Source: Paraburkholderia acidisoli
Lineage (GTDB): Bacteria > Pseudomonadota > Gammaproteobacteria > Burkholderiales > Burkholderiaceae
Direction: 5' to 3'
Length of the DNA: 64,000 nucleotides
Assembly: GCF_009789675.1 (NCBI RefSeq)
Contig: NZ_CP046915.1
Span: 1,240,001 to 1,304,000, forward strand
How positions within the stretch are numbered: the first letter of the stretch is position 1; every line of letters begins with the position of its first letter. The position numbers were made by a program, and so were the translations under genes. Below, one piece after another: positions 19,597 through 37,582 of this stretch. The notes beneath the pieces are model-generated. The model was not told where the DNA came from, ran no database searches, and worked only from the letters and a program-made list of their open reading frames with translations.

Positions 19597-19657
19597 GGGC
19601 TGCAGCCTCCGCAAAAAAGAGTGACAGCGTCGTGCGAAATCACGTGCCTTGCATATT

Positions 19658-19671
19658 GTAAATGCATTAAC
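19658..19671. promoter_or_regulatory. Putative MarR operator
   Basis: GTAAATGCATTAAC is a 14 bp imperfect palindrome (12 of 14 positions symmetric) centred on TGCA in the 117 bp between the divergent MarR gene and its neighbour. MarR-type sites are usually AT-rich palindromes of this size. Confidence 0.5.
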
Positions 19672-19713
19672 TATTATCGGGTAGTGCTTCATCCAACCCA
19701 AAGGAGGATGCCG

Positions 19714-20852: not shown

Positions 20853-21746
20853 TCACCGATCCTCGTGCGGCTCCATGAGGGGATATTCATCGCCATTGCG
20901 CACAAAACCGGGCATCTGCGAAAAGTCCATACGTGGCGGCCCGAAAATGTCCACGAGCCAGCAACCGGCTTCCAGCGCCTGACTCGTATGGATCAACCCG
21001 GCGGGCAAGGAGATCGCGGCGGGACTGTCTATCTCCAGATGCTCGTCGGCTTGCCATTGCGTCGAATCCGGCCCCCAGGGGGTACGCAGATGATGCGCGA
21101 ATCGACCCGCGTAAGTCAGCGTGATCTGCTCGAAATCGTCGTGTGAGTGGGGCTTGAGTTTCTTGCTGTCGCGCTTGCCCGGATAGATATCGGTGATATT
21201 GACCATCAGATTGGTGCAGCGAAACGCGCGGCCGGGCTGCGTGGCATCGACATAGTCGTCCAGCCGGTAATGCCGCAATTTGAAGCCGTTCACCGGATCG
21301 GGCCATGCACGGCATTCGCTCAATTCGGGCGCGCCAGCCGCGTAGTCGGCTGCATTGAGCGCCGCGCCCAGCGTTTCTCGCGACGTCGTGCCGACGATGT
21401 GCGCGAGCAGGCCGTTGCCTTCGACATCGACCTGGCTCTCCCCGGGTGGCAGGATAAAGAGGGTATCCCCTTCGCTTGGCGCCTGTTGCTGCATCGTATC
21501 CACGCGAACGCGCACGCGTAGTGCTGCTGGCGCGACGATCATCGATTCCGCCGTTTCGCGAATGTCGATCGTTGCGCGTCCTTCGATTCGCGTCATCGCA
21601 AGGGCGAAGTGCGCGGTGCGCAGAACCCAGCGTTGATTGCCGTGGCTATCGAGTTGCGGTGGCGTGTCGAACCTCGTGATGGTGCGGCTGCGAGCGGGAA
21701 CGACGATGCCGCGCTTGCGCGGCCGCGTGCGGGTTTCGGCGTTCAT
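20853..21746 (-). CDS. Bicupin-like protein
   Basis: 297 residues that fold as two beta-barrel halves. The second half has the cupin metal motif in KLKPHSHDDFEQITLTYAGRFAHHL (HxH...E) and LPAGLIHTSQALEAGCWLVDIFGPPR for the closing His. The first half (LRTAHFALAMTRIEGRATIDI) lacks the His pair. GGAGTGAG precedes the ATG. The gene begins five bases after the stop of the RraA-type aldolase gene, so they form an operon. The likely role is isomerisation, dioxygenation or lactone handling of a carboxylic acid intermediate; the substrate is unknown. Confidence 0.75.
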   Translation of the reverse strand: MNAETRTRPRKRGIVVPARSRTITRFDTPPQLDSHGNQRWVLRTAHFALAMTRIEGRATIDIRETAESMIVAPAALRVRVRVDTMQQQAPSEGDTLFILPPGESQVDVEGNGLLAHIVGTTSRETLGAALNAADYAAGAPELSECRAWPDPVNGFKLRHYRLDDYVDATQPGRAFRCTNLMVNITDIYPGKRDSKKLKPHSHDDFEQITLTYAGRFAHHLRTPWGPDSTQWQADEHLEIDSPAAISLPAGLIHTSQALEAGCWLVDIFGPPRMDFSQMPGFVRNGDEYPLMEPHEDR

Positions 21747-21751
21747 CGTGC

Positions 21752-22579
21752 TCACTCCGCGCGCTGGGGAATGGCCGGGCGGCCGTCGGCGACCCATTGC
21801 CGGAATTCCTCGCGCGTTTTCTCGTTCGCCGGGAACACGCCCCACAGCGCGTCGCCCGCACCGATGCGCAGGCTGATGTACTGCTCGATATCGTCCTGTG
21901 CCTCGCAGGCGTCCGCGAGTTCGGCGGCCAGATGGGGGGGGATCACGGTCACGTTGTTGCGGTCGCCGTGGATGATGTCGCCGGGATAAACCGCCACGCC
22001 CGCGCAGCCGATCGGCACTTGCAGATCGGCGACATGGTGATACGCGAGCCGCGACGTGGCCGTCACTTCCTTGCTCCAGGAAGGAATGGCCATATCGCCG
22101 ATTTCGTCGCCGTCACGAAACGCGCCGTCGGTAACAACGGCGGCTGCGCCGCGCAGCATCATGCGCTTGACGAGCACGTCGCCCATGGCGGCGGCACGAC
22201 CGTCGCCGCGGCTGTCGATCACGAGCACGTCGCCGCGTTGTACCTGTTCGACGCCGAACCATTGCAGGTTATCCGCGTTTGGCTCGGTGGTGACGGTCGC
22301 AAGGGTATCGACATGTTCGCGCGCCGGTATGAAGCGCATGGTGTAAGCGCGGCCCGCAAACGGCTTCAGATCCCGGTTGAGCGGCTTGATGCCCACCATC
22401 ACCGGCTGAATGTAGCCGCGCTTGAATAGTTGCGTGGTGAGTGTGCCGCTCGACGCTTTCGCGAGGCGTTCGAGCACCGAGTCGGGAACGTAGTGCGGGT
22501 TGTTGCTTCGTTCGCTCAGTTCTTCTAGAGTGGGAACGCGCGCGTTCGAGGGAGAGAGCGGCTCGATGGTTGTGTTCAT
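21752..22579 (-). CDS. RraA/4-hydroxy-4-methyl-2-oxoglutarate aldolase-family protein
   Basis: 275 residues. The active-site segment GAAAVVTDGAFRDGDEIGDM carries the Arg-Asp pair that binds the substrate carboxylate and metal in HMG/CHA aldolases, with PIGCAGVAVYPGDIIHGDRNNVTVIPPHLA downstream. An N-terminal extension of about 35 residues precedes SVLERLAKASSGTLTTQLFKRG. The enzyme would cleave or decarboxylate a 4-hydroxy-2-oxo-dicarboxylate to pyruvate or oxaloacetate-type products. It is divergent from the IclR/SMP-30 fusion gene. A close relative at 36776-37582 has the same arrangement with a second fusion regulator. Confidence 0.85.
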   Translation of the reverse strand: MNTTIEPLSPSNARVPTLEELSERSNNPHYVPDSVLERLAKASSGTLTTQLFKRGYIQPVMVGIKPLNRDLKPFAGRAYTMRFIPAREHVDTLATVTTEPNADNLQWFGVEQVQRGDVLVIDSRGDGRAAAMGDVLVKRMMLRGAAAVVTDGAFRDGDEIGDMAIPSWSKEVTATSRLAYHHVADLQVPIGCAGVAVYPGDIIHGDRNNVTVIPPHLAAELADACEAQDDIEQYISLRIGAGDALWGVFPANEKTREEFRQWVADGRPAIPQRAE

Positions 22580-22660: not shown

Positions 22661-22749
22661 TCCCATAGAACCTACCCACGAAAAACCGCAGCGAACGGCT
22701 TTGCGTTGGCATACGGTGCGAAGTGTTCCAGATGGTGAGACACGAAAAG

Positions 22750-24333
22750 ATGAGCAAGAGCAGCAACACAGGTGAGGGAACCGCGTCGCTCGAAAAGGCG
22801 ATCGATGTGCTGGATGCAATCAGCGCTGCCCCGGAAGGCATCAGCCAGTCGGAGCTTTCGGAGCAGGTTGCGTTGCCGCGCACGACGCTGTATCGCATTC
22901 TCGCGACGCTAAACGCACGCGGGCTGGTGCGCCGCGATCCGTCGCGGCATGTCTATTGCCTCGGATTCCGCTGCGTGGAGATGGCACGGCAGGCGTATGC
23001 GATGCCCGAACTGGTTTCCGCCGCGTCGCACGAGTTACGGGCGTTGCGCGACCTGACTGGAGAAACCTCGTATGTCGGCACGCTGGAAGGCATCGACGTG
23101 GTTTCGCTGGAGCGCTACGACAGCCCGCACACGCAGCGCTCGCGCACCTCGCACGGGCACCGGAAGCCCGTGTATGCAACGAGCCAGGGCAAGGCGATTC
23201 TGGCCGCGCTGCCTGCCGTCGAGCGCGACGCCATCGTGGCCGCGGTGCGGCTCAAAGCGCACACGGAAATGACGATCACCGACCGTCGCCGTCTGGTGGC
23301 GGAGCTGCGCGTGGTGGCCAGCCGCGGTTACGCCATCGACGACGAAGAAAACGTGCTGGGCACGCGTTGCGTGGGCGCGGCCATCACAGACGCGCACGGG
23401 GTGGTGCGGGGCGCGATCAGCGTGGCGGGACCGGCGTATCGGCTCACGCATCATCGGCTCGAACTGCTTGGCCCGGAACTGGTTGCGGCCGCCAGGCATA
23501 TTGGCGCGCTGCTGACGCCGCTTCGACGCGCGGGCGAAAGCACGGGCGATGCGGTCACGCCCACTTCGGCGCCCACTGCGCTATACGGTGCGCATCCGGT
23601 GTGGTCGCCCGAGCGTCAGGCGCTGATCTGGGCAGATACCTTGGCGCCCGCGCTGCGCATATCGAGCGAGAGCGGAGGGGAACAGCGCGTGCAGATTTCG
23701 CATCCCATCCGCTGTTTGCTGGTCACGGCGCAGGGCATACGCGCATTTCACGAAGCAGGCAGCACTCTGGTGGATGCCGATAAAAAACGCCCGCCGCCCG
23801 ACACCGATCGCGTTTTGCTCGCAGCCTGCGTGGGCGCCGAGGACATCATATGGGTGTCGAGCTTGCAGGCGCGTAAGTTCCAGATTGGCATCTTGCACGA
23901 CGATGGCGCGTTTACGAGCAAATGGTCCTTGAATCATGCCGTCGATGGCTTGCGCTTTGATCGCACTACGGGCCTGTTATTCGGCACGATGCCGGATACC
24001 GGCGACATCATCGTGCTGAATCCGTCGCGAAAGGAAGTGCGCACCTTTGCGCGCGTGCCGAAGAGTTCGGGCGTGCTCAGCGGTCTCGATGTCGATAACG
24101 AAGGCGGCGTTTGGGTCGCGTTGCGGGACGGCTGGAGCGCGATGCGCTTCGCCGCAGACGGCAATCTCGATCAAACGGTGCCGCTGCCGGTGCCGTGCCC
24201 GACCGGTATCGCCGTGGGCGGCGTGGATGGCAAGACGCTATTTATCGCTACGGCGCGCCAGCCGGTTCCGCTCGACGTGCTCAAGAAAGCGCCGCTTTCC
24301 GGCAGCCTGTTCAGGCTAGCGCTCACGGCGTAA
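22750..24333 (+). CDS. IclR regulator fused to an SMP-30/gluconolactonase-like beta-propeller, copy 1
   Basis: 527 residues, twice the usual IclR length. The first 260 are a full IclR protein: winged helix GISQSELSEQVALPRTTLYRILATLNARGLVRRD and effector domain with LRALRDLTGETSYVGTLEG, SQGKAILAALP and VGAAITDAHGVVRGAISVAGPAY. From about 278 (LYGAHPVWSPERQALIWADT) a six-bladed SMP-30-like propeller follows, ending SGLDVDNEGGVWVALRDGWS and PTGIAVGG. The metal-ligand Glu of GEGPxW is replaced (GAHPVW), and the Asn and Asp positions also look altered, so the propeller is probably a sensor and not a lactonase. The ATG at 22750 is chosen by analogy with the paralog at 35015-36616. Confidence 0.85.
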   Translation: MSKSSNTGEGTASLEKAIDVLDAISAAPEGISQSELSEQVALPRTTLYRILATLNARGLVRRDPSRHVYCLGFRCVEMARQAYAMPELVSAASHELRALRDLTGETSYVGTLEGIDVVSLERYDSPHTQRSRTSHGHRKPVYATSQGKAILAALPAVERDAIVAAVRLKAHTEMTITDRRRLVAELRVVASRGYAIDDEENVLGTRCVGAAITDAHGVVRGAISVAGPAYRLTHHRLELLGPELVAAARHIGALLTPLRRAGESTGDAVTPTSAPTALYGAHPVWSPERQALIWADTLAPALRISSESGGEQRVQISHPIRCLLVTAQGIRAFHEAGSTLVDADKKRPPPDTDRVLLAACVGAEDIIWVSSLQARKFQIGILHDDGAFTSKWSLNHAVDGLRFDRTTGLLFGTMPDTGDIIVLNPSRKEVRTFARVPKSSGVLSGLDVDNEGGVWVALRDGWSAMRFAADGNLDQTVPLPVPCPTGIAVGGVDGKTLFIATARQPVPLDVLKKAPLSGSLFRLALTA

Positions 24334-24390: not shown

Positions 24391-25695
24391 TTAGTTATAC
24401 GAAACAGATGGGGAGCGCGTACGCGGCGAATGCAGCAACAGCGCAATTGCGAGCGCTGAGCACAGCGCAAGACCGGCGGCAACGGCGAACGCCATCGGGT
24501 AGCCGCCGCCATATTGCACGAACCAGCCCGTCAGCCCCGGCGCGATCAAACCGGCAAGATTGGCGACCAGATGCACGAAGCCGCCCGTCACGCCCACTTT
24601 CTCTTGCGGCACGACTTCACGCACCAGCACCCAGCAATTTTGCGGAATCATGAACGAGCAGATGCTCGAGCCGGAGATCGCGAGCACGGCCAACACCGCG
24701 CTTTGCGAGCGCATCGTTACCACCATCAGCACCGCCGCGCCTGCGAGCGCGACCAGCAGCAAGGTCTTGCGGGCCGCCACGCTGTCGCGCGAGCGCTTGA
24801 CCATGCTGTCGCTGATCCAGCCGCCCGCGCCCAGTCCAATTGCTGCGCCCAGCCACGGAATCGCGCCAACCACGGCCATTTCGCGCACGTTCAGATGCTG
24901 GAAATCGACCAGATAACTGGGCAGCCACGAGAGGAGAAAATACAGCAGATAGTTCGAGGCGAAAAAAGCGATGCAGATGGCCAGCACGCGCTTCGAGAGC
25001 AGATGGCTCCAGATACCGCGCGACGGCGAGGCATTTTCGGCAAGCGCGGTTTCGCGCTGCAACACCGCCGCGCGTTCGTGGCTCGCCGCGATCTGCTCGC
25101 GCTCGACCGGCGACACACGCGGATGCTGCTCCGGCGTATCCCGGAAGAATCGCAGCCACGCCAGCACCCATACGAGACCCAGCACGCCCGTCACGATGAA
25201 CGCCACGCGCCAGCCGTAGTTGAGCGCAAGAAAGCCGATCAGCGGCGCGGCGATGGCGGCTCCGAGCGGTTGCCCAATGGCGATGAAACCCACGGCGCGC
25301 GCCGCTTCTTCGCGGGGAAACCAGTGGGTGATGGACTTGTTGATGGTCGTGCCCATCGGTCCTTCGCCAATGCCGAACAACACACGCACGGCCAGCAGCC
25401 CGGAAAAGCTCGACATTGCCGCGGTGGCGGCGCAGAACAACGACCAGAACGAAGCGGCGGCGGCAAACACGCGGCGCGGGCCGAAGCGGTCGGCGCACCA
25501 CCCGCCGACAAAGCAGAACACGCAATAGCCGGTGAAGAAGGCGCTGAATAACAGCCCCATCTGATAGTCGGTGATATGGAGTTCGGAGCGGATAAACGGC
25601 GCGGCCACGGACATGGCGGCGCGGTCTACGTAATTCAGTCCGCCGGCGCAGAAGAGCAGGATGCCGACGATCCATCGATAGCGATGTTGACCCAT
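24391..25695 (-). CDS. MFS transporter, anion:cation symporter family
   Basis: 434 residues, 12 predicted helices. ACS-family marks are LNYVDRAAMSVAAPFI in helix 1, the loop 2-3 motif GGWCADRFGPRRVF, RVLFGIGEGPMGTTINKSITHWFPREEAARAVGF and the central loop with FFRDTPEQHPRVSPVERE. Such permeases import hexuronates, aldarates, galactonate or phthalate-type acids with protons. It is convergent with the IclR fusion gene and divergent from the porin gene; together they suggest an uptake pair for an acidic substrate. Confidence 0.9.
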   Translation of the reverse strand: MGQHRYRWIVGILLFCAGGLNYVDRAAMSVAAPFIRSELHITDYQMGLLFSAFFTGYCVFCFVGGWCADRFGPRRVFAAAASFWSLFCAATAAMSSFSGLLAVRVLFGIGEGPMGTTINKSITHWFPREEAARAVGFIAIGQPLGAAIAAPLIGFLALNYGWRVAFIVTGVLGLVWVLAWLRFFRDTPEQHPRVSPVEREQIAASHERAAVLQRETALAENASPSRGIWSHLLSKRVLAICIAFFASNYLLYFLLSWLPSYLVDFQHLNVREMAVVGAIPWLGAAIGLGAGGWISDSMVKRSRDSVAARKTLLLVALAGAAVLMVVTMRSQSAVLAVLAISGSSICSFMIPQNCWVLVREVVPQEKVGVTGGFVHLVANLAGLIAPGLTGWFVQYGGGYPMAFAVAAGLALCSALAIALLLHSPRTRSPSVSYN

Positions 25696-26120: not shown

Positions 26121-27284
26121 GTGAAGCATGTGAAGAAATGCGTTGTGCTTTCCGCGGCGCTTGCGCTGCCGGCGATCGGCCACGCGCAAAGCAGCGTCTC
26201 GCTGTACGGCGTGATCGATACGGGTTTTCTCTACGCCAATAACGTGAACGGCGGCCATCTCTACACGAGCCAGGCGGGCTGGTATCAGGGCAATCGCTGG
26301 GGCTTGCTGGGCGCCGAAGATATCGGCGGCGGCTATCAGGCGATTTTCCGGCTCGAAAGCGGATTTTCCGTGCTGAACGGCTCGATGGGCCAAGGCGGCG
26401 CGCTGTTCGGGCGTCAAGCGTACGTGGGCATTTCCGGCCCTTATGGTGCGGTCACGGCCGGTCGTCAATACGACGCGATCGTCGAATACGCGGAACCCGC
26501 GCGCGCCAACACAGCGCTGCTGATCAACCATCCTGGCGAATTCGACAACCTCGGCAACGACTATCGCCTGAATAACACGCTCAAGTTCGCCAGCGCCAAT
26601 TTCCACGGCTTCAAGTTCGGCGGCATGTTCAGCCTGGGCGGCGTGGCGGGTAGTTTCGACCGAAATCGCGCGTATTCATTCGGCGCTTCCTACAATCAAG
26701 GGCCGCTGTTTCTCGGCGTGGCGTATCTCGACACTCGCGACCCCAACTTTTCGTACTACGGCAACAACCCGTCGTCGAGCACCACCGGCAACAACATGTC
26801 GGCGTATCGCATCTTTTCGGGCTATGCTTCGGCGCGCACGCTGGACACGCTCGCGGCCTCGGCGGGCTACACGCTCGGCGAGTTGAACGTGGCGGCCACC
26901 TACACGAACGTGCGCTACAGCGGGCTGGGCGCGTTCGCCTCGCTGAATCCGTCCGGTTATCAGGGCGTGGCGGCGTTCAACACGGCCGAACTCGCGCTTG
27001 GCTACGCGCTCACGCCTTCGCTGAAGCTGGGCGCGTCGTATCAGTACATTCACGGTGCGCCGGTGCGCAACGGCGACATCGGCAAGGTCACGTACCATGA
27101 GGCCGACGTTTCGCTCGACTATTTCTTCACGAAACGCACCGACGTGTACGTGATGGTGATGGGCCAGATCGCCTCCGGGAAAGACTCGACGGGGCAGGCG
27201 GCCGTGGCGCAACTCTGGGCGCTCGGACCTTCGTCGACCAGCCGCCAGATCGGCAGCGTGGTCGGCCTGCGCCACAAATTCTGA
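26121..27284 (+). CDS. Gram-negative trimeric porin
   Basis: 387 residues starting at GTG 26121, with AGGAGA upstream. A signal peptide (KHVKKCVVLSAALALPAIGHAQ) is followed by the Burkholderia-type porin start SSVSLYGVIDTGFLYANN, then RWGLLGAEDIGGGYQAIFRLESGF and GRQAYVGISGPYGAVTAGRQYD on the barrel and constriction loop. The last residue is Phe (VVGLRHKF), the outer-membrane assembly signal. It should allow small acidic or sugar-like solutes through the outer membrane for the nearby permeases. Confidence 0.95.
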   Translation: MKHVKKCVVLSAALALPAIGHAQSSVSLYGVIDTGFLYANNVNGGHLYTSQAGWYQGNRWGLLGAEDIGGGYQAIFRLESGFSVLNGSMGQGGALFGRQAYVGISGPYGAVTAGRQYDAIVEYAEPARANTALLINHPGEFDNLGNDYRLNNTLKFASANFHGFKFGGMFSLGGVAGSFDRNRAYSFGASYNQGPLFLGVAYLDTRDPNFSYYGNNPSSSTTGNNMSAYRIFSGYASARTLDTLAASAGYTLGELNVAATYTNVRYSGLGAFASLNPSGYQGVAAFNTAELALGYALTPSLKLGASYQYIHGAPVRNGDIGKVTYHEADVSLDYFFTKRTDVYVMVMGQIASGKDSTGQAAVAQLWALGPSSTSRQIGSVVGLRHKF

Positions 27285-27482: not shown

Positions 27483-28760
27483 ATGAAATTCCGCGGACAG
27501 TACCGCTCGACGATTCTGGCGATGTTGTTGCTCGCCACCGTCATCAACTATATCGACCGCTCCGCGCTGTCGATCGCCATGCCGTTCATCACGCACGACT
27601 ACCATCTTTCCGCGAGCGAGAAGGGCATTATTTTCGGCGCGTTCTCGGTCGGCTATGCGATGTTCAACTTTCTCGGCGGCTACTTTTCGGATCGCTTCGG
27701 CGGCCGCAGCGTGTTGAGCTGGTCGATGAGCGGCTGGTCGGTCGCGTGCGCGCTTACGGCGGCCGTTTCCGGCTTCTGGTCGATGCTGGTGCTGCGTATC
27801 GTGTTCGGCATGGGCGAAGGCCCGAACGCGGCCACCTCGAACAAGGTCGTGAACACGTGGTATCCGATCGGCGAACGCGCGAGCGCCGCCGGCATCGCGC
27901 AATCGGGCGGTCCGATCGGCGGTGCGCTGGCGGGACCGGTGGTTGGTTTTCTCGCGCTGGCGTTCGGCTGGCGTGCCGCGTTCATGGTGATGGGCGTGCT
28001 GGGGATCGGCTGGGTGCTGCTGTGGCGCCGCCTTTCTACCGAACTCCCCGCGCAGCACGAGCGCGTGAGTCCGGCGGAACTGGCGCAGATCGAGGCAGGT
28101 CAGGAACCGGCTCGCGTCAAGCACGGACAGAAAGTGTCGATCCGCGAAGTAGTGACGAAGCGCGCGGTGCTCACGACCGGCATTTCGCTCTTTTGCTACA
28201 ACTACGTGCTGTTTTTCTTCATCACGTGGTTCCCGAGCTACCTCGTGGATGCGCGCCATATCAGCCTGAAGAACATGAGCCTCGTCAGCTCGCTGCCGTG
28301 GATCACCGGCGCGATCGGCTTTATGACGGGCGGTTTGATCGTCGACGCCATTTATCGCCGCACGGGCCGCCGCATGATGTCGCGCAAGATCGTGCTCGTC
28401 ACGTCGTTCCTGATCGCGGCGGCGTGCGTGGCGCTGACCGGCATCGTGGATGAAGTCTGGACCGCCGTGGCAGTGATGACGATCGCCATCGGCTTTCTCA
28501 TGCTCGCCGGTCCCGCCTACTGGGCGATCATTCAGGACAGCGTGCCGCGTCATCAAGTGGGCACGGCCAGCGGTTTCATGCACGGTCTCGCGAATTGCTC
28601 GGGCATCGTCGGTCCCGCGATCACGGGCTTTCTGATCCAGAGCACGGGCAGCTTCGTGAGCGCCTTTGTGCTCGCGGGTGCCGTCGGTTTGATCGGCTCG
28701 CTGATTCTGGCGTGCTTCGTCAGCAGCAAGGAACAGATGGGCGTGCCGACGCCCGCGTGA
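27483..28760 (+). CDS. MFS transporter, anion:cation symporter family
   Basis: 425 residues, 12 helices. It has the ACS motifs INYIDRSALSIAMPFI, GGYFSDRFGGRSVL, RIVFGMGEGPNAATSNKVVNTWYP and SQGGP-like SGGPIGGALAGPVVGFLAL. GGAG lies about ten bases before the ATG. It follows the porin on the same strand (198 bp gap) and precedes an alpha/beta hydrolase. A terminator at 28787-28825 separates it from the latter. The substrate is probably a sugar acid or other carboxylate. Confidence 0.92.
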   Translation: MKFRGQYRSTILAMLLLATVINYIDRSALSIAMPFITHDYHLSASEKGIIFGAFSVGYAMFNFLGGYFSDRFGGRSVLSWSMSGWSVACALTAAVSGFWSMLVLRIVFGMGEGPNAATSNKVVNTWYPIGERASAAGIAQSGGPIGGALAGPVVGFLALAFGWRAAFMVMGVLGIGWVLLWRRLSTELPAQHERVSPAELAQIEAGQEPARVKHGQKVSIREVVTKRAVLTTGISLFCYNYVLFFFITWFPSYLVDARHISLKNMSLVSSLPWITGAIGFMTGGLIVDAIYRRTGRRMMSRKIVLVTSFLIAAACVALTGIVDEVWTAVAVMTIAIGFLMLAGPAYWAIIQDSVPRHQVGTASGFMHGLANCSGIVGPAITGFLIQSTGSFVSAFVLAGAVGLIGSLILACFVSSKEQMGVPTPA

Positions 28761-28786
28761 TTGAGCGTGGTAGCTCTCAACGCAAC

Positions 28787-28825
28787 GGCGTATGTCCGCA
28801 AGGGCATACGCCTCTTTCATTTTTG
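28787..28825 (+). terminator. Rho-independent terminator after the MFS gene
   Basis: GGCGTATG (28787-28794) pairs with CATACGCC (28805-28812), followed by TCTTTCATTTTT. It lies in the 72 bp before the alpha/beta hydrolase gene, so that gene may be expressed by read-through or from its own promoter. Confidence 0.75.
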
Positions 28826-28832
28826 GAGTGTC

Positions 28833-29780
28833 ATGAGTGAGTTCAGCCCTGCCCTCAGTGAGGGCATGCGCGAGTTTGTCGATACCGCCGCGACGTTCCG
28901 CAGCGCGAGTGACGACTGGGCGGCGCGCCGCGCGGCGTTCGCGCGTCAATGTGCGCATTTCACGCCGCTGCCCGCGCGCCCGCTCGTCGTGGAAGATCGA
29001 ACGATAGGCGGCGTGACGACGCGCGTGTACCAGCCCGCGCACGAAGCGCCCGAATGTGGCTGGCCGGTACTGGTTTACTTTCACGGCGGCGGCTGGACGA
29101 TGGGCGATCACAGCACGCACGACTGGTTCGCACACGCGTTGCTGGCGCGCGCGGATCTGGCGATTGTCGCGGTGGATTATCGGCTTGCGCCCGAGTTCAG
29201 CTATCCGGCGCCGCTCGACGACGGCCTCGCGGTTTGGAACGCGATTGCCGCTTCTGCGTGGCCGTTCGATTCCGGGCGCGCGGCGGTATCGGGCGACAGC
29301 GCGGGCGGGACTATCGCCGCCGCGTTGTGTATGGCGTTGCGTGCGCGCGGCCAGGCGCAACCGCGCGCGCAGGCGTTGCTCTATCCGGTATTGAGCGCCG
29401 ATACGGCGTTTGCGTCGATGCGCGAGCACGCGCTCGCGCCGATGCTGAGCGCGCAAGGTCTCGCCGATTCCATCGCGCTTTATTTGCCCGACGAACGCAC
29501 GCGCCATACGGAAGAAGCGATGCCGCTCGCAAGCAAGGACTTCGGCGGACTTGCGCCCGCATTGCTGATCGTGGCGACGGAGGACGTGCTGCGCGATCAA
29601 GCCGTCGATTACGCGGCGCGCGTGCGGGAAGCGGGTGGCACGGCGGAAGTGCTTCTGGCCGAGGGTTGCGTGCATGGCGCACTGCGCGCGACCTATCTGC
29701 CGGAAGCCGTGGCGTGCTACGAGCGCATCGCCGAATTTCTGATCGCGTACGACGCTGCCGGGCGCACCGTGCAGAACTAA
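28833..29780 (+). CDS. Alpha/beta hydrolase, hormone-sensitive-lipase (GDXG) family
   Basis: 315 residues. The oxyanion-hole motif HGGGWTMGDHSTHDW (about 89-103), the nucleophile elbow GDSAGGTIAAAL (about 158-169), the acid in LIVATEDVLRDQA and the His in EGCVHGALRA complete the catalytic triad of an HSL-type carboxylesterase. There is no signal peptide, so it acts in the cytosol on a short-chain ester or lactone. GGAG precedes the ATG at 28833. Confidence 0.92.
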   Translation: MSEFSPALSEGMREFVDTAATFRSASDDWAARRAAFARQCAHFTPLPARPLVVEDRTIGGVTTRVYQPAHEAPECGWPVLVYFHGGGWTMGDHSTHDWFAHALLARADLAIVAVDYRLAPEFSYPAPLDDGLAVWNAIAASAWPFDSGRAAVSGDSAGGTIAAALCMALRARGQAQPRAQALLYPVLSADTAFASMREHALAPMLSAQGLADSIALYLPDERTRHTEEAMPLASKDFGGLAPALLIVATEDVLRDQAVDYAARVREAGGTAEVLLAEGCVHGALRATYLPEAVACYERIAEFLIAYDAAGRTVQN

Positions 29781-29838: not shown

Positions 29839-30936
29839 TTAACGAGCGCGTGCGAATCGCGAAACGACCGCTTCGTCGGGTGCGAGACCGATGCCGGGTG
29901 CGTCGCCGAGACGAAGCTGGTGGCCGGGCCCGATCGATGAAAGATCGATCAATTCCGCCGCCGGTTCGACATAGAGCCATTCGACCTGCAACATGTCGCG
30001 ATGCGCGGTGGCCAGATGCAGCGTGGTCAGAAAGCCCGGCCCGAAATACGGGCTATGCGGCAGCACGCCCGTTTGCGCCGCGCGCGCCAGTTCGACGATC
30101 TCCAGAAACTCCGTCACGCCGCCGACCTTGCTCACGCTCGGTTGCAGATAATCGACCGCTTGCGCCGCCACGGCCTGCTGAAATTGCAGCGACGTGCACC
30201 AGTTTTCCCCGGCCGCGATCGGCACGCCGTGGTGGCGCAGGCGCGCGAGACGCGCGAAGTCTTCGGGCGGGAAAATGGGTTCTTCGAGCCACGAGATGCC
30301 TTCCAGCGCTTTCAACTGCTCGATATTCGCGAGCGATTGCGCGTCGGTCCACGCGCAATTCACGTCGACGGAAACGGGCGCGCGGCCATCCACGGCGGCG
30401 TGCGCCGTTTCGATTACCGCCATGTCGATTTCGTGCAGCTTGATGTCGGCGTAACCTTCGTCGAGCGCGCGGCGGCAGATCGCGGCGGCGGCGTCGCCTT
30501 CGCCGTAACGCACGAGGCTCGCATACGAGCGCAGCGTGACCGGTTCCGCGCCGCCCAGCGTTTTCCACAACGGCTCGCGCTTGCGCTTCGCGGCCAGATC
30601 CCACAGCGCCATGTCGACGCCCGAAATCGCGAACATCGTGATGCCGTAGCGGCCGAAGATATGCAACGCGCGCTGCGCGGCTTTGGTCCACGCCGGAATC
30701 GATTCGACCGTCGCGCCTTCGATCAGCGGCTTCAGACGCGTTTCGACCACGCTGAGCGTCGCGTCGGCCACGAAGTAACCGAACGCTTCGCCCCAGCCCA
30801 CGTTGCCGTCGGTGTCTTCGACGCGGATCAGCACCGTTTCCATCGACTTCCACGCGGAAGGCGTGATGCCGAGTCCGCGGCCGCGATCTTCGAACGGCAC
30901 TTCAACCACGCGCGCTTCAAGGGAACGGATTTTCAT
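29839..30936 (-). CDS. Mandelate racemase/muconate lactonizing enzyme-like enolase-superfamily enzyme
   Basis: 365 residues. The N-terminal capping domain (MKIRSLEARVVEVPFEDRG) is followed by the barrel with YADIKLHE (catalytic Lys plus His, a KxH pair), metal ligands in SVDVNCAW, ISWLEEPIFP and PIAAGENW, and the later base His in GVLPHSPYFGPGF. The arrangement fits sugar-acid dehydratases or aldarolactone cycloisomerases. Its start overlaps the stop of the epimerase/dehydrogenase gene (ATGA at 30933-30936). With that gene and the aldehyde dehydrogenase it outlines an oxidative uronate/aldarate route. Confidence 0.88.
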   Translation of the reverse strand: MKIRSLEARVVEVPFEDRGRGLGITPSAWKSMETVLIRVEDTDGNVGWGEAFGYFVADATLSVVETRLKPLIEGATVESIPAWTKAAQRALHIFGRYGITMFAISGVDMALWDLAAKRKREPLWKTLGGAEPVTLRSYASLVRYGEGDAAAAICRRALDEGYADIKLHEIDMAVIETAHAAVDGRAPVSVDVNCAWTDAQSLANIEQLKALEGISWLEEPIFPPEDFARLARLRHHGVPIAAGENWCTSLQFQQAVAAQAVDYLQPSVSKVGGVTEFLEIVELARAAQTGVLPHSPYFGPGFLTTLHLATAHRDMLQVEWLYVEPAAELIDLSSIGPGHQLRLGDAPGIGLAPDEAVVSRFARAR

Positions 30937-31733
30937 TGCGGTGTCCTGACGATAAGCGGCTTCGGCACATACGGGCCGCCCACAAAATCGGGGCCTTCGG
31001 AAGCTGGCATCGCTTCGCGCGCAACAAATGCGGGCGAGAGATTATCCTGCGCCGAATCCTGCGGCACGTAGCCGAGTTCGGTGGCGCGCGCGTTGTCGAA
31101 GAAGGGCGCGGCGCAGCGCGACACGCCGTACACGACTTCGTTCGACACGTCCGCGTGCTCGAGACCGACGCGGATCAGTTGCGCGAGATCGCGTCCACTC
31201 ACCCAGATATGCTGACGGCGGCCGTCGCCGATCGTGTCGGTTGCGCTGCCGATGCGGATCGACATCGTCTTGATGCCGTGACGATGCGCGTAGAGCGCGC
31301 ACGCGGCCTCACCGAACACTTTGGAGAGCGCGTAGAAGCCGTCCGGCGCAATGCTCGCGTGGTCGCCCGCGAAGCCGTCCACGCGATGCTGCCCGAGCAC
31401 GTGATGGCTGCTGGCGAACACGAAGCGGCCGATGCCGTGTTCGCGCGCGGCGTCGAGCAGATAAAGCTGCGCGCGATAGTTGGCGTCGAGCGTGGCTTCG
31501 AAGTCGATGTCCAGGCTGTACGCGCAGGCGAGGTGCAGGATCGCGTCCGCGCCTTGCGCCGCGCGCAGCACGGCGTCGCGGTCGGCGATATCGCCCACGA
31601 TGGCCGTTTCGTTGGCGGCCAGATCGCACGCCTCGCGCAGATCGAGCAGACGCAGGTTGTAGCGCTCGCGCAGGTACGGGCGCACGCGGGCGGCGACGCC
31701 GCCGGCCGCGCCGGTCACAAGTATCGTTTTCAT
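30933..31733 (-). CDS. NAD-dependent epimerase/dehydratase-family protein, uronate dehydrogenase-like
   Basis: 266 residues, extended short-chain dehydrogenase. The NAD site is TILVTGAAGGVAARVRPYL, with the acid in LRLLDLRE selecting NAD, and the catalytic YALSK (about 136-140) with Ser in FASSHHVLG. Sequence and length match bacterial uronate dehydrogenases, which oxidise D-glucuronate or D-galacturonate to the aldarolactone. The gene is in an operon with an enolase-superfamily enzyme that could process such a lactone. Confidence 0.82.
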   Translation of the reverse strand: MKTILVTGAAGGVAARVRPYLRERYNLRLLDLREACDLAANETAIVGDIADRDAVLRAAQGADAILHLACAYSLDIDFEATLDANYRAQLYLLDAAREHGIGRFVFASSHHVLGQHRVDGFAGDHASIAPDGFYALSKVFGEAACALYAHRHGIKTMSIRIGSATDTIGDGRRQHIWVSGRDLAQLIRVGLEHADVSNEVVYGVSRCAAPFFDNARATELGYVPQDSAQDNLSPAFVAREAMPASEGPDFVGGPYVPKPLIVRTPQ

Positions 31734-31752: not shown

Positions 31753-32046
31753 TCAACGAGTGTAGTCGCAGGCGACCCATTCGAAGTAGGTTTTCAGATC
31801 CGCGATGAGGGCCTGATGCGCCGGGTGCGGAAGATAGCGCTCGACGGCTTCGGCGTCGTCGAAGCTCGCTTCGAGCAGATAGTCCCAGCAGATCGGGCGC
31901 GCCAGTTCGTTGGCTGAGACGCGCCACGCGCGGATAAAGTCGATCTCGCCTTCGAGATTGCGCATGCGCTCGACCAGCGCGGCTTCGCGATGCATATCCT
32001 CGGCCACGTGTTCGAGACGGCGGAACATCACCACGTGCTGCATCAT
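31753..32046 (-). CDS. Dabb (dimeric alpha-beta barrel) stress-responsive-type protein
   Basis: 97 residues beginning MMQHVVMFRRLEHVAEDMHREAAL, the typical first strand of Dabb proteins (HVVxFR), with YLLEASFDDAEAVERYLPHPAHQALIADLKTY later. The ATG pair at 32046/32043 overlaps the ALDH stop and follows GGAGGG. Dabb proteins form dimers that bind small carboxylic or aromatic compounds; in catabolic operons they often act as isomerases or mutarotases. The function here is inferred from position. Confidence 0.82.
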   Translation of the reverse strand: MMQHVVMFRRLEHVAEDMHREAALVERMRNLEGEIDFIRAWRVSANELARPICWDYLLEASFDDAEAVERYLPHPAHQALIADLKTYFEWVACDYTR

Positions 32047-33476
32047 CGCGTGATCCCTCCGGCGTTGGCGTCCAGCGCCCATTGCGGCGCGTCTTGCAGC
32101 GCGACCGGGCGCAGGAAGCGTTCGATGGCCGCATAACCCACGGACGTGGTTTGCGGCTGCGTCGAAGCGGGCCATGGGCCACCGTGCTGTTGTGCGTCGC
32201 ATACGGCTACGCCAGTGGGCACGCCGCCGAACAGCACGCGTCCGGCGATGCGCTGCGCGGCAGCGGCGAGCGCGCGGTTCGCGGGCGTGTCGGCTTCGGC
32301 GCCCCAGAGCGTGGCCGTGAGTGTGCCTTCCACGGCGGCGAGCACGTCGAGCGCCTGGGCTTCGTCGCGCACCTTCACGATTAGCGCGGCGGGGCCGAAC
32401 ATTTCCTCGCGCAACGCAGCGTTGGCGATAAAGGTGGCGGCGTCGGTTTCGTAGAGACGCGGCGCGGGCGTGGTCGCTGCCTCGTTTTCCGCCGATACCG
32501 CGAGACGCACGCGCACGCCCGCCTGCTCGGCGATATGTGCAGATGCCTTCTCGAAGCCGCCGCGCATCGCCTGCGTGAGCATCGCGTGCGGTTGTTGCGC
32601 GGCCAGCGCCTGGGCGAGCGCCGCGACGAAACGTTCGCCGTCTACATCGTCATACACGACGATCAGGCCAGGGCTGGTGCAGAACTGGCCGCAGCCGAGC
32701 GTGATCGACGCGGCCAGCGCAGCGGCGGGCGCATCGACGCCTTGCGCGAGCGCGGCGGGCGTGACCACGAGCGGGTTGATCGAGCCGAGTTCGCCGTAGA
32801 ACGGAATCGGCAAACGTCGTGCATTGGCCGCGCGCCACAACGCCACGCCGCCCTGATACGAGCCCGTGAACGCAACGGCGCTCACGTCGGCGTGACTCAC
32901 CAGATGTACGGCGGCGTCGCGCGAAGCCTGATCGACGAAACCGATCACGCCTTCGGGCAAGCCTTGCTCGCGCAGCACGTTGGCCGCGAGCGCATGCACG
33001 CGGCGCGAGAGTTCGGGATGGCCCGAATGCGGCTTGACGATGACGGTGCAACCGGCCGCGAGCGCCGAAGCCGTATCGCCGCCGAGCACCGAGAACGCGA
33101 ACGGGAAGTTGCTGGCCGAGAACATGGCCACCGGGCCGAGCGGTGCGAGCACGCGCGTGAGGTGCGGTCGTCCCGCGGGCGGCGCGCCGGGCACCGCGGC
33201 GTCGTCGATCTGACGATGTGCGATGCCGCTATCGACGCGATCGGCGAAACCGCGCAACTGGAACGCGGTGCGCGCGAGTTCGCCATTCAGGCGACCCGCC
33301 CCGAGCGAGGTTTCTTCGTCGGCGACGGAAACCAGTGCGGCCTGGTTCGCTTCGAGTGCGTCGGCGAGACCGCGCAGCAGTCGAGCGCGCACGGCGGCGG
33401 GTGCGGCGCCGTATTGCGCCTGCGCGGCGTGGGCGCCTTCCACGGCGCGATCGATGATGGAGAATTGCGTGCTCAC
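32043..33476 (-). CDS. Aldehyde dehydrogenase, alpha-ketoglutaric semialdehyde dehydrogenase-like
   Basis: 477 residues from GTG 33476, with GGAGG upstream; GTGA overlaps the stop of the SnoaL gene. The sequence has the Rossmann part FSASNFPFAFSVLGGDTASALAAGCTVIVKPH, the substitution YGELGSINPL for the usual ELGGKSP, and the catalytic Cys in LGCGQFCTSPGL. This pattern (SASNFPFAFS, FYGELGSINP, GQFCTSPG) is that of NADP-type 2,5-dioxovalerate dehydrogenases. It would convert alpha-ketoglutaric semialdehyde to 2-oxoglutarate at the end of a sugar-acid pathway. Confidence 0.9.
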   Translation of the reverse strand: MSTQFSIIDRAVEGAHAAQAQYGAAPAAVRARLLRGLADALEANQAALVSVADEETSLGAGRLNGELARTAFQLRGFADRVDSGIAHRQIDDAAVPGAPPAGRPHLTRVLAPLGPVAMFSASNFPFAFSVLGGDTASALAAGCTVIVKPHSGHPELSRRVHALAANVLREQGLPEGVIGFVDQASRDAAVHLVSHADVSAVAFTGSYQGGVALWRAANARRLPIPFYGELGSINPLVVTPAALAQGVDAPAAALAASITLGCGQFCTSPGLIVVYDDVDGERFVAALAQALAAQQPHAMLTQAMRGGFEKASAHIAEQAGVRVRLAVSAENEAATTPAPRLYETDAATFIANAALREEMFGPAALIVKVRDEAQALDVLAAVEGTLTATLWGAEADTPANRALAAAAQRIAGRVLFGGVPTGVAVCDAQQHGGPWPASTQPQTTSVGYAAIERFLRPVALQDAPQWALDANAGGITR

Positions 33477-33925
33477 GATTTGGCCTCCAGGTGGTAGCCG
33501 CGTCCTTCGTAGTCGAAATCGACGAGTTCGTTGATCGCCACGGTCTTGTCGGCGGGCGAGGCGTAGTACGCGCGAATCTCCTTGATGCGGACGGTTTCCG
33601 GGTCGAATACGTACCACTCGTCGCCGCGCAGCGCAGTGTTGAGCTTTGACTTCCAGTGCGTCCACTCGATCACGGCTTCATGCGAGTCGTGCGAGACGAG
33701 GATCTTTTCGATGGTCCATTGCGAGCCGAGTTCGGCCACGCACCATTGCCATTTGCGCGCGATGGTGTCGGCGCCGCGCCACGGAATGTCGGGCAGCCCG
33801 GCCGGGAAATAGTGCACGGCATCGGGCGTGAAGCACGAGACGAGTTTGTCGTAGTCGGCCTCGTTGCAGGCGTCGAAGTAGCGGCGAATGAGCGCTGCGT
33901 AGCGGTTCGGATCGTGATCGGCCAT
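33473..33925 (-). CDS. SnoaL/NTF2-like protein
   Basis: 150 residues. The cone-shaped NTF2 fold is recognisable from NRYAALIRRYFDACNEADYDKLVSCFTPDAVHYFPAGLPDIPWRGADTIA and the later YVFDPETVRIKEIRAYYASPADK. The ATG at 33925 is chosen because AGGAGG is then ten bases upstream; the ATG at 33934 sits too close to it. Such proteins act as isomerases, cyclases or dehydratases on small ligands. Its operon with sugar-acid genes suggests a lactone or keto-acid substrate, but no catalytic residues can be assigned. Confidence 0.8.
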   Translation of the reverse strand: MADHDPNRYAALIRRYFDACNEADYDKLVSCFTPDAVHYFPAGLPDIPWRGADTIARKWQWCVAELGSQWTIEKILVSHDSHEAVIEWTHWKSKLNTALRGDEWYVFDPETVRIKEIRAYYASPADKTVAINELVDFDYEGRGYHLEAKS

Positions 33926-34083
33926 GAGTGGCATGCCTCCTGTTGGGTGCCCGGCGCGCGAGGCGGCCAGGCATGATGGACTCTGGCCCACAGTGTAGAA
34001 GCGTCGGCTTGCGGCGTAGACGGGTAAGCGGGATTCGAGTCGGGGTGAGTCTCAGCATCTGGAATCGCACGCGAATCTGACTG

Positions 34084-34992
34084 CTAGCGGTTCGCTTTCC
34101 AGGAGAGCGTTACCTGCGCCGCGAAATTCGCGCCGGGTTCGAGCACATGCGTGCCCGTGCCTTCGATGTCTTGCGCCGCGAAATTGAAACCGTTCGCCAC
34201 GTGACTGACAGGTTCGATGCAGCAAAAGCTTCCAGAGCGGGGCGCATAGGCCACGAGGTGCGTAAGCGGTGCTGCCGTGGCGAGACGCACGGTGCCGCCC
34301 GTGCGCGTGATGCTGGCCGAGCCGTTCCATTCGCTCGCATAGATCGCGCAGTCGCGGTCTTGCCAGTCGTTCGGCGTCAGCTCAGTGACGCCCGAGATGG
34401 GGAATGACGCGCCGGTGGGAACAAAGGCCGGGTCGAGTTGCCAGCGGCGGCTCGCCTGGAAGTGCACCGTTGAAGTGCTGTCGACGGCAAGAAACGGATG
34501 CCAGCCAAGCCCGGCCGGCATCGCGCGCGTGCCGGTATTGCGCAGCGCGAGCGTCACGTCGAGCGCTGCCGCATTCAGGGTGAAGACGATGCGCGCCTCG
34601 AACGGCCACGGCCAGTCTTCGCTCGCCTCGCTGTGCAGCACGAGTTCGGCGCGTTGAACTGTGTGCGAGGCGAGTTGCCACGCGCGGCGCTGCGCGTGGC
34701 CGTGCAGGCTGTTCGGCAGATCGAGCGGATGTGGCTTGAGCGCGTGGATTTCATTGCCGAAATTCAGGCGTGCGCCCACGATGCGGTTCGAGTACGGGAT
34801 CAGCGGATACGCGCCGGCCTTCGGCCAGCCGTGCTCGGGCGCGTCCCACTTGTGCAGCGGCACGAGGAGATCGACGTTGCCGTCGTGCGCTTTCAGCGTG
34901 CACACGCGCGCGCCGAGTTGCGGCGCGATTTCGGCTTCGAGAATGCCGTTGTCGAGCGTGATACGGTGGTCTGGCAAGGTGAATTGCGTCAT
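34084..34992 (-). CDS. Aldose 1-epimerase family protein
   Basis: 302 residues with the galactose-mutarotase fold: LEAEIAPQLGARVCTLKAHDG, IPYSNRIVGARLNFG (the Asn-Arg substrate contact), NSLHGHAQRRAWQL (His general acid) and GLGWHPFLA (second His). The C-terminal CIEPVSHVANGFNF supplies the Glu base region. It would interconvert anomers of a sugar or uronate before oxidation. The ribosome site before the ATG at 34992 is weak. It lies between the IclR fusion gene and the SnoaL gene on the same strand. Confidence 0.88.
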   Translation of the reverse strand: MTQFTLPDHRITLDNGILEAEIAPQLGARVCTLKAHDGNVDLLVPLHKWDAPEHGWPKAGAYPLIPYSNRIVGARLNFGNEIHALKPHPLDLPNSLHGHAQRRAWQLASHTVQRAELVLHSEASEDWPWPFEARIVFTLNAAALDVTLALRNTGTRAMPAGLGWHPFLAVDSTSTVHFQASRRWQLDPAFVPTGASFPISGVTELTPNDWQDRDCAIYASEWNGSASITRTGGTVRLATAAPLTHLVAYAPRSGSFCCIEPVSHVANGFNFAAQDIEGTGTHVLEPGANFAAQVTLSWKANR

Positions 34993-35014: not shown

Positions 35015-36616
35015 TCAGGCGTCGAATTGCAGTCGCAGCAAATGCCCGGAGAGCGGGGCGCTCGCGAGCGATTCGATCGGTTGGTGATTGCGGTCGCTGG
35101 TGATGTAGAGCGCCGCACGCGCCTCGCTGTGGCGCACGAAGACGAGGCCCGTGGGCGCGGCCACGGGCAGACTCACGATGCGGTCGAGCGCGCCTTCCTC
35201 GGAGAAGCGCATGAGGCTCCAGCCGTCGCGCAACGCGGTCCACACACCGCCGCGATCGTCGAGCGCGACGGCCGATAGACGGCCCGATCCCGGCGGCATG
35301 GCCGCAAAACGGCGCACGCTAGACGAGCCCTGCCGAAGCATGTAGACGGTGCCGGATGCCGATGCCGCCGCATAGGCGTGCGTGCCGTCGGCGGACCATG
35401 TCATCGAGTCGATGACTTCGCTGAACTTCCACACGGCCTCGAAACGTTGCGACGCGTTCACGAAGCCGAGATGTCCGTGACTGCCACGCTGGAACCAGCC
35501 CCACGTGTGGCCGTGCGGATCGGTGCAGAGCAGCGTGATGTCGGGTTCGCTCCAGACGCTCGCGCCTTCATGCACGGTGAGGGTTTCGTCGGCGGCAAGC
35601 AGTAAATGGCGGCCAGCCTGAGCGAGTAGCAAGCCCTCGGGACGCAACTGCATGCCGGAGATGGGCGCGTCGAGCTGGCATACGATGCGGTCGGTCCCGA
35701 CGCCGTCGGCGCCGGTTTCGAACGCATGCAGCGCGGGCGCGAGCGTGTCGGCCCAATAGAGCGTGCCGCGCGCGTTCCACCACACGGGAAACGCGCCGTG
35801 AAACGCCCACGCGGGACTCACCGCCGAAACCTCCTCGGTTTCCGTCGCGCGGCCGCCGCTTTGCAATTGCGCGCCCACGCGCCGCGCGGCCTCGACGAGC
35901 TCGGGACCGAGCAGTTCGAGCCGAGCGAGCGACATGCGGTAAGCCGGTCCCGCGACACTCAACGCGCCGCGCACGTGCCCCGCGTTATCGACGATGGGCG
36001 CCGCCACGCAACGCACGCCGAGCACGATCTCTTCGTCGTCGACGGCATAGCCGCGCGCGGCCGTGATGCGCAATTCCACCTGAAGGCGGCGGCGGTCGGT
36101 GATGGTGCGCGGCGTGAGCGCCGTCATCGTCACGTTGCGTAGCAGCGTGTCGCGTTCGTCGCGCGGCATGCGCGAGAGAATCGCCTTGCCCTGGCCTGTG
36201 CAATAGACGGGTTTGCTGCGCCCGAGCGCGGAGGCCGAGCGTTGCGAATGCGCGCCGTCGCAGCGCTCGAGCGAGATGACTTCGCTGCCGTCGAGCGCGG
36301 CGAGGTACGTCGTTTCGCCGGTGAGATCGCGCAGCGCGCGCAGCTCGGCGGTAGCAGCTGCGACCAGATCGGGCATCAGATACGAGTTGCGCACGAGTTC
36401 CAGATAGCGGAATCCGAGACGATAGACGCGATGCGTGGCGTCGCGCCGTAGCAGGCCGTGCTCGATCAGCGTGGCAAGAATGCGATAGAGCGTTGTTTTC
36501 GGCAGGCCGGCTGCGTCGAGCAGTTCCGCGTTCGTCATGCCATGCGGCGTCGCGCCCACCATTTCCAGCACCGTGAGCGCCTTCGATAGCGCTGCAGTTC
36601 CGTCTCCGACACTCAT
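35015..36616 (-). CDS. IclR regulator fused to an SMP-30/gluconolactonase-like beta-propeller, copy 2
   Basis: 533 residues. Residues 1-262 are a complete IclR protein (winged helix MTNAELLDAAGLPKTTLYRILATLIEHGLLRRD; effector domain GQGKAILSRMP and VAAPIVDNAGHVRGALSVAGPAYRM), strongly similar to the copy at 22750. From about 274 (GAFPVWWNARGTLYWADT) a propeller of SMP-30 type follows, with SAVALDDRGGVWTALRDGWSLMRF and PTGLVFVR near the end. The Glu of GEGPxW is again absent (GAFPVW), so lactonase activity is unlikely. It starts the sugar-acid operon on the minus strand and is divergent from an RraA gene. Confidence 0.87.
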   Translation of the reverse strand: MSVGDGTAALSKALTVLEMVGATPHGMTNAELLDAAGLPKTTLYRILATLIEHGLLRRDATHRVYRLGFRYLELVRNSYLMPDLVAAATAELRALRDLTGETTYLAALDGSEVISLERCDGAHSQRSASALGRSKPVYCTGQGKAILSRMPRDERDTLLRNVTMTALTPRTITDRRRLQVELRITAARGYAVDDEEIVLGVRCVAAPIVDNAGHVRGALSVAGPAYRMSLARLELLGPELVEAARRVGAQLQSGGRATETEEVSAVSPAWAFHGAFPVWWNARGTLYWADTLAPALHAFETGADGVGTDRIVCQLDAPISGMQLRPEGLLLAQAGRHLLLAADETLTVHEGASVWSEPDITLLCTDPHGHTWGWFQRGSHGHLGFVNASQRFEAVWKFSEVIDSMTWSADGTHAYAAASASGTVYMLRQGSSSVRRFAAMPPGSGRLSAVALDDRGGVWTALRDGWSLMRFSEEGALDRIVSLPVAAPTGLVFVRHSEARAALYITSDRNHQPIESLASAPLSGHLLRLQFDA

Positions 36617-36720: not shown

Positions 36721-36739
36721 AGTTCCACAAGTTGGAACT
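36721..36739. promoter_or_regulatory. Perfect palindrome, putative operator of the second IclR fusion regulator
   Basis: AGTTCCACAAGTTGGAACT has 7 bp arms (AGTTCCA/TGGAACT) around CAAGT, in the 159 bp between the divergent IclR fusion and RraA genes, 37 bases before the RraA start. Size and position suit an IclR dimer site controlling both directions. Confidence 0.6.
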
Positions 36740-36775: not shown

Positions 36776-37582
36776 ATGACACTTCACGCTTACGCCGAGG
36801 GCCTCGACCATGAAGTCGACCGCGCCGTGCACGTCAGCGACGAAACGCTCGCACGTCTCGCCAAAATCAGCAGTGGCTCGCTCACCACGCAATTATTCAA
36901 GCGCGGCTTCCGTCAGCCGGCGTTGGTTGGCCTGCGCGCCGTCAATCGCGAAGTGAAGCCGTTCGCGGGCCGCGCGTTCACGATGCGCTTCATCCCTGCG
37001 CGCGAGGACATCGACACTTACGGCACGATGACCACCCGTCCGAACACCGACAATCTGCAATGGCAAGGCGTGGAGCAGGTACGCGAAGGCGACGTGCTGG
37101 TGATCGACAGCCGCGACGATCCGCGCGCGGCTTCGGCGGGCAATATCCTCATCACGCGTCTGCTCGCACGCGGCGCACGCGCGATCGTCACGGACGGCGC
37201 ATTGCGGGACGGCACCGAAATCGCTCAAATGGCGCTGCCGGCCTACGCGCGCGAGATCACGGCGACCACGCGCATTTCGTATCACCATGTCGCGGACTTG
37301 CAGGTGCCGATCGGTTGCGCGGGCGTGGCGGTCTATCCCGGCGACGTGATCGTCGGCGATGCGGATGGCCTCACGGTGGTGCCCGCGCATCTGGCTGAGG
37401 AACTCGTGGAGATCTGCGAGAAGCAGGACGACATCGAGCACTATCTGGCGATGCGGATCGCCGCGGGCGAGGCGCTTTGGGGCGTGTATCCGCCGAGCGC
37501 GCAGTCGTATGCCGACTATGAGGCCTGGGTTGCCGGCGGCCGGCAAAAGATCGAAGCGCTGCCGCGCGTGGCAGGTCACTAA
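36776..37582 (+). CDS. RraA/4-hydroxy-4-methyl-2-oxoglutarate aldolase-family protein
   Basis: 268 residues, closely similar to the product of 21752-22579 along its length (SSGTLTTQLFKRG/ISSGSLTTQLFKRGF, TMRFIPAREDIDTYGTMTT, GCAGVAVYPGDVIVGD). The active-site segment RAIVTDGALRDGTEIAQM keeps the Arg-Asp pair. It should be a metal-dependent aldolase or oxaloacetate-decarboxylase-type enzyme for a short hydroxy-oxo-dicarboxylate. AGGAAA precedes the ATG. It is divergent from the second IclR/SMP-30 regulator. Confidence 0.87.
   Translation: MTLHAYAEGLDHEVDRAVHVSDETLARLAKISSGSLTTQLFKRGFRQPALVGLRAVNREVKPFAGRAFTMRFIPAREDIDTYGTMTTRPNTDNLQWQGVEQVREGDVLVIDSRDDPRAASAGNILITRLLARGARAIVTDGALRDGTEIAQMALPAYAREITATTRISYHHVADLQVPIGCAGVAVYPGDVIVGDADGLTVVPAHLAEELVEICEKQDDIEHYLAMRIAAGEALWGVYPPSAQSYADYEAWVAGGRQKIEALPRVAGH

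Follow-up and report, generated by a model that had tools for sequence, protein, structure and literature searches.

A propeller of the SMP-30 lactonase family with an altered metal site, fused to an IclR regulator in Paraburkholderia acidisoli

Introduction

IclR regulators and SMP-30 lactonases are well known, each separately. The IclR regulators (KdgR, AllR, IclR, PcaR, and the Thermotoga IclR structure 1mkm) combine an HTH_IclR domain with an IclR_C effector domain, and both domains, the fold, and conserved sequence are common to them and to the fusion protein described here. In several enzyme-derived regulators (ROK repressors, MocR/PdxR, SorC, and RpiR) and in trigger enzymes such as PutA, an enzyme fold acts as the sensor or is joined to it. 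Such a change from enzyme to sensor is usually inferred from its end points. To our knowledge, no regulator pairs an SMP-30 lactonase with a second, complete IclR-type effector domain. Our full-text search of the open-access papers of one library returned no paper treating an IclR-SMP-30 fusion. In the portions available, PMC5507952 names IclR regulators in galactose loci and makes no mention of a lactonase on them, while PMC8222616 contains “lactonase” once, in its reference list, and “propeller” nowhere.

The nearest known kin of the propeller half is the SMP-30/gluconolactonase family, including human SMP30 and Caulobacter xylonolactonase. According to excerpts of PMC3551927, the metal of human SMP30 is held by Glu18, Asn154, and Asp204, and both the metal and Asn103 are critical. 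Here, we describe two IclR-propeller fusions in a 64,000-nt stretch of Paraburkholderia acidisoli DNA (“the window”; GCF_009789675.1, NZ_CP046915.1, positions 1,240,001 to 1,304,000 of the forward strand).

Results

Copy 1 (22750..24333, + strand) encodes 527 aa in a single frame. Its parts are an HTH_IclR winged helix-turn-helix at residues 13 to 64 (22786..22941, +; PF09339 model, E 1.7e-14; 53.7 bits, above the Pfam cut-off of 22), an IclR_C effector domain at residues 87 to 251 (23008..23502, +; 129.3 bits, above the cut-off of 24), and a six-bladed SMP-30-type propeller, its metal site lost, at residues 264 to 527 (23539..24330, +). The SGL profile matches residues 428 to 503 with 72 bits (above the cut-off of 26.3), and the six-bladed fold is seen in the predicted structure. 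Pfam and the predicted structure show both folds to be complete, confirming the initial annotation of a complete IclR regulator joined to a whole SMP-30-like propeller. That annotation had also called for a search for this domain architecture; in our protein search, 7999 candidates were scored and 760 passed, and IclR and SGL domains were found together in all 120 listed matches, query included. A sequencing or frameshift artefact joining two genes is ruled out, since 120 of 120 listed relatives have both domains and the frames are long at 77 of 80 loci. The database names of some members already cover both halves.

Copy 2 (35015..36616, − strand) is a second IclR-propeller fusion of 533 aa, 45% identical to copy 1, and it adjoins a fuller set of sugar-acid genes than copy 1 does. 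The two copies also lie close together in “Candidatus Burkholderia humilis” (locus L014) and in genome G665 (locus L110); in both, copy 1 is broken and the nearby copy 2 is open.

The initial annotation held that the Glu of the GEGPxW motif had been altered and that the other two metal positions also looked changed. Our alignments bear this out: A281 (codon 23590..23592, +) occupies the place of Glu18, D399 (23944..23946, +) that of Asn154, and S444 (24079..24081, +) that of Asp204, with L357 (23818..23820, +) additionally at the place of Asn103. In direct alignment with human SMP30, the A281 and S444 replacements are visible as well, A281 within a weak stretch. In copy 2, Glu18, Asn103, Asn154, and Asp204 are replaced by A, T, D, and S, and in the propeller alignments E, N, N, and D are present in eight of eight standalone SMP-30 references. 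An alignment of 200 propellers combined copy 2 with the 120 listed proteins, one of which is the query, and with the long frames of 79 fetched loci; 11 rows were repeats (each window copy had been entered twice), and their removal left 189 distinct sequences. None of the four site residues is present in 180 of these and only one in the other 9 (“dead type”). In their place stand mostly Ala, Leu, Gln or Asp, and Ser, which make up no metal site known to us. By these four residues, copy 1 is no functional SMP-30 lactonase; an intact catalytic site beside a DNA-binding domain, the criterion for a trigger enzyme, is absent in copy 1 and copy 2. These alignments support the view that the lactonase metal site is gone in dead-type fusions, copies 1 and 2 included.

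The dead-type propeller is nevertheless under purifying selection. Its median dN/dS is 0.197 over 107 pairs, against 0.083 for the IclR half in the same pairs (in-house NG86 script; pairs with unsaturated synonymous sites, not independent of one another), and the propeller is thus the faster evolving of the two. In the 120-row alignment, 50 of 252 propeller positions show at least 90% conservation. We consider it very improbable that the propeller is now without a role, the decaying remnant of a once useful enzyme domain: loss of the active site, evolution faster than that of the IclR half, and the broken copy 1 genes of L014 and L110 would fit such decay, but the low dN/dS, the highly conserved positions, and the long open frames at 77 of 80 dead-type loci speak against it.

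Structural Gly, Trp, and Pro account for many of the conserved propeller residues. At the places of the former ligands, dead-type proteins differ from one another, which points to a cavity floor without strong constraint and counts against reading the propeller as a sensor. Both observations, together with the faster evolution of the propeller, favor an alternative in which it binds no small molecule and gives an ordinary IclR regulator a platform for structural purposes or protein contacts, such as oligomer assembly or docking to RNA polymerase or to an enzyme of the pathway. A ligand role is the better fit, however, to the sister group described below, in which the same fusion retains the whole sugar-lactonase site, and to the sugar-acid pathway neighborhood, and we regard the platform as unlikely, if the strongest of the alternatives.

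A genome scan gave 129 places, of which 80 were kept; those listed fall mostly in Burkholderiales and Pseudomonas, with one in Acetobacteraceae. The fusion is rare: it was found in 13 of 299 genomes of the host's family and in 2 of 369 genomes of its class (host counted in each), and among the 13, G388 and G525 match as the intact type (see below) and G583 gives a partial match. In quick trees of 27 rows, the dead type forms one branch, with support of 100 for the propeller and 99 for the IclR half. A search for a standalone source of the dead-type propeller returned 13 matches, the first 7 of which look like pieces of fusions, and hence no close standalone source was found.

In a large sister group of the same architecture, the metal site is intact in 117 of 120 listed proteins. 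These 117 have an intact catalytic site together with a DNA-binding domain, as in a trigger enzyme, and judged by their site residues, members of the intact group are very probably enzymes. The existence of this group means that the fusion architecture alone is no sign of a dead enzyme; neither the group nor the neighboring pathway figured in the initial annotation. Its named members are mostly alphaproteobacterial, and it also occurs in some Burkholderiaceae. Sugar-pathway genes are present at all five sister-group loci with annotated neighbors, no second SMP-30 gene was found at the six loci examined, and some loci share the predicted operator (see below).

In Sulfitobacter mediterraneus (L183:7911-10423), the fusion gene is directly followed by a separate SMP-30 gene. 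From this adjoining annotation, we expected the site of the fusion to be damaged, and in this one case it was: Asn154 is replaced by Lys and Asp204 by Asn, with Glu18, Arg101, and Asn103 kept, while the separate SMP-30 gene keeps all site residues. The L183 fusion gene has a perfect predicted operator. It is possible that this fusion represents an intermediate between the intact and dead types. A single origin of the two groups was not rejected by AU tests of each half (p 0.60 and 0.63, on quick trees with long branches); the predicted operator of the dead type recurs at L144, L145, and L183 and speaks for a single origin, but neither result is proof.

The predicted operator was found through a search for gapped inverted repeats in 61 of 69 divergent regions, those shorter than 450 bases. 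The top repeat, TTCCA-N5-TGGAA, occurs in 7 regions; in 20 plain shuffles, no motif occurred in more than 2. Allowing up to 2 mismatches in 12, GTTCCA-N5-TGGAAC is present in 43 of 69 divergent regions versus 0.9 expected from dinucleotide shuffles, the regions that yielded the motif being those in which it was counted; the remaining 26 exceed 2 mismatches or are too short. In the window, the predicted copy 1 operator, GTTCCAGATGGTGAGAC (22725..22741, +), lies just upstream of the ATG with 2 mismatches to the perfect repeat, and the predicted copy 2 operator, GTTCCAACTTGTGGAAC (36722..36738), is a perfect inverted repeat, the only such in the genome. The 7.9-Mb genome has 4 matches to the form GTTCCA-N5-TGRRAC, against 1 for the reversed control, and two of the 4 are in the promoters of copies 1 and 2. 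Because this form was fitted partly on both window sites, loci outside the window carry more weight. The other two genomic places lie in or near frames without evident kinship and are likely due to chance.

Of ten additional loci, L144, L145, L179, and L183 have a promoter site within 1 mismatch of the repeat (perfect at L179 and L183), and L181 has a 2-mismatch site in the operon promoter; L176, L177, L178, L180, and L182 have no promoter site within 2 mismatches. The predicted operator was not found at the Agrobacterium and Sinorhizobium intact-type loci. Two intact-type fusions have a porin gene beside them with a 1-mismatch copy at its start (L144:10559 and L145:8451), which suggests that the porin belongs to the regulon.

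In the window, copy 1 is divergent from an RraA-like aldolase gene (PF03737; 21752..22579, −), which adjoins a conserved gene without a Pfam match (20853..21755, −; cluster 22, 6 loci) whose product looks cupin-like by eye. Farther out, the product of the open reading frame at 19330-20715 (+) has no Pfam match; its later part presumably resembles 4,5-dihydroxyphthalate decarboxylase-like proteins. On the other side of copy 1 lie two genes for galactonate-transporter-like MFS transporters, both under the model cut-off (24391..25695, −, and 27483..28760, +), with a Gram-negative porin gene (26121..27284, +) between them, and an alpha/beta hydrolase gene (Abhydrolase_3; 28761..29780, +). The neighborhood of copy 2 holds the full gene set: an enolase-superfamily (MR/MLE) protein whose nearest models are acid-sugar dehydratases, under their cut-offs (29839..30936, −), an NAD-dependent epimerase/dehydrogenase whose nearest NCBIfam model is the Azf sugar dehydrogenase, under its cut-off (30933..31733, −), a Dabb-domain protein (31753..32082, −), an aldehyde dehydrogenase family protein (32043..33476, −), a SnoaL-like protein (33473..33991, −), an aldose 1-epimerase family protein (34084..34992, −), and, divergent from copy 2, a second RraA-like aldolase (36776..37582, +).

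Neighborhoods were compared over 80 loci and the window with our own open reading frame caller and BLAST clusters, plasmid records excepted, each cluster being named from one representative. Six of the 80 loci have no gene in the fusion cluster, and the following counts refer to 75 loci (74 plus the window). An RraA-like gene is the immediate divergent neighbor of 49 of 76 fusion genes. Within seven genes, the most frequent clusters are RraA-like (53), SnoaL-like (47), aldehyde dehydrogenase (40), and Dabb (29), followed by the TctC receptor and the Azf-like NAD epimerase (21 each), MR/MLE (20 and 12, two clusters), MFS (18), aldose 1-epimerase and IlvD/Edd (13 each), GD_AH (11), and UxuA (6 and 5, two clusters). 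Acid-sugar dehydratases near dead-type fusions therefore come from four unrelated families (MR/MLE, IlvD/Edd, GD_AH, and UxuA). The regulator and the RraA-like, SnoaL, aldehyde dehydrogenase, and Dabb genes form the more constant part, and the entry enzyme varies between loci; such an arrangement would be a plan for degrading 2-keto-3-deoxy sugar acids. SnoaL-like (47/75) and Dabb (29/75) proteins can be seen to travel with the regulator.

A standalone SMP-30 gene is located near only 3 of 80 dead-type loci, which counts against a lactone as the sensed ligand. Since many dead-type loci have dehydratases and acid transporters as well, the ligand may be an acid and not a lactone. The three standalone neighbors all keep Asn154 and Asp204; Asn103 is His in one, and Glu18, readable in one, is kept there. 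Weaker propeller matches occur at L024, L028, and L074. A rule that a dead site is always paired with a separate lactonase is, with 3 of 80 loci, not general.

The same scarcity bears on whether the propeller still works as a lactonase, its site rebuilt or able to do without metal, and supplies the enzyme missing from most operons: a sugar dehydrogenase-like gene is present at 21 of 75 loci and a separate SMP-30 gene at 3 of 80, and the intact sister group is very probably enzymatic. Yet the Glu, both Asn, and the Asp are all gone in copy 1, the replacing residues form no metal site that we know of, and SMP30 depends on its metal (PMC3551927). Residual lactonase activity thus seems improbable to us, though less so than a propeller with no role.

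Discussion

The initial annotation proposed that a lactonase fold had been recruited into a one-component regulator as a second ligand-sensing domain, a view that our data support in part. The best reading of our data is likewise a recruited, non-catalytic lactonase fold, as indicated by the loss of the metal site, purifying selection, acid-sugar neighbors, and a conserved predicted operator. In mechanistic terms, the IclR half would bind the predicted operator GTTCCA-N5-TGRRAC, which lies in the region separating the fusion gene from the divergent operon, and the regulator would thereby control that sugar-acid catabolic operon. The propeller, as a former SMP-30 sugar lactonase without metal, would be unable to hydrolyze its ligand; its central cavity probably still takes the pathway's sugar lactone or sugar acid, a signal that would then be relayed to the half contacting DNA. 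For the IclR effector domain, a second and smaller acid is a possible ligand, as in KdgR and IclR. Because the IclR half is akin to KdgR among others, a keto-deoxy acid is a fair guess for this second ligand.

As for its origin, the dead type most likely descends from an ancestor with an active fused lactonase, as in the sister group, and the comparisons of sequence are best read as a bifunctional lactonase-regulator having become a sensor in which a dead lactonase detects sugar lactones or acids. Taken as a whole, a one-component regulator of sugar-acid operons, with a dead lactonase as probable sensor and an active fused ancestor, is the account we lean toward. A complete graded series, from regulators with an active built-in lactonase that works for the operon under their control, through the half-lost site of Sulfitobacter with its separate lactonase alongside, to a dead clade (both window copies included) in which the propeller is a second, non-catalytic sensor, is more tentative, and we would place it just short of an even chance.

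The acid-sugar neighborhood, the predicted common operator, the intact sister group, and the half-lost site of Sulfitobacter are new. For the change from enzyme to sensor, present-day bacteria seem to preserve both end points together with one possible intermediate. All share one architecture, and some the predicted operator, so that the steps can be tested singly. Many proteins labeled as IclR regulators or gluconolactonases gain a common, testable role, and the predicted operator and the RraA-like, SnoaL-like, and Dabb neighbors are brought to notice for sugar-acid breakdown.

Compared with known systems, copy 1 scores far under the curated cut-offs of the models for KdgR (NF011671; 126.5 bits, cut-off 275), PcaR/PcaU/PobR (TIGR02431; 138.6 bits, cut-off 284.75), and BhcR (NF045644; 178.1 bits, cut-off 350). 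As is usual for IclR regulators, the fusion gene is mostly divergent from its neighbor with a palindromic site, here the predicted operator, between them. The solved IclR relatives that we compared consist of the HTH and effector domains only, whereas the fusion adds a propeller of 264 residues. The intact-type fusions, such as ATU_RS26100 of Agrobacterium fabrum C58 (annotated as an SMP-30/gluconolactonase/LRE family protein), have the same domain order as the dead type and 29 to 37% identity to it; they differ in that their metal site is complete and that several of their genes sit inside an operon, not divergent from it as in the dead type.
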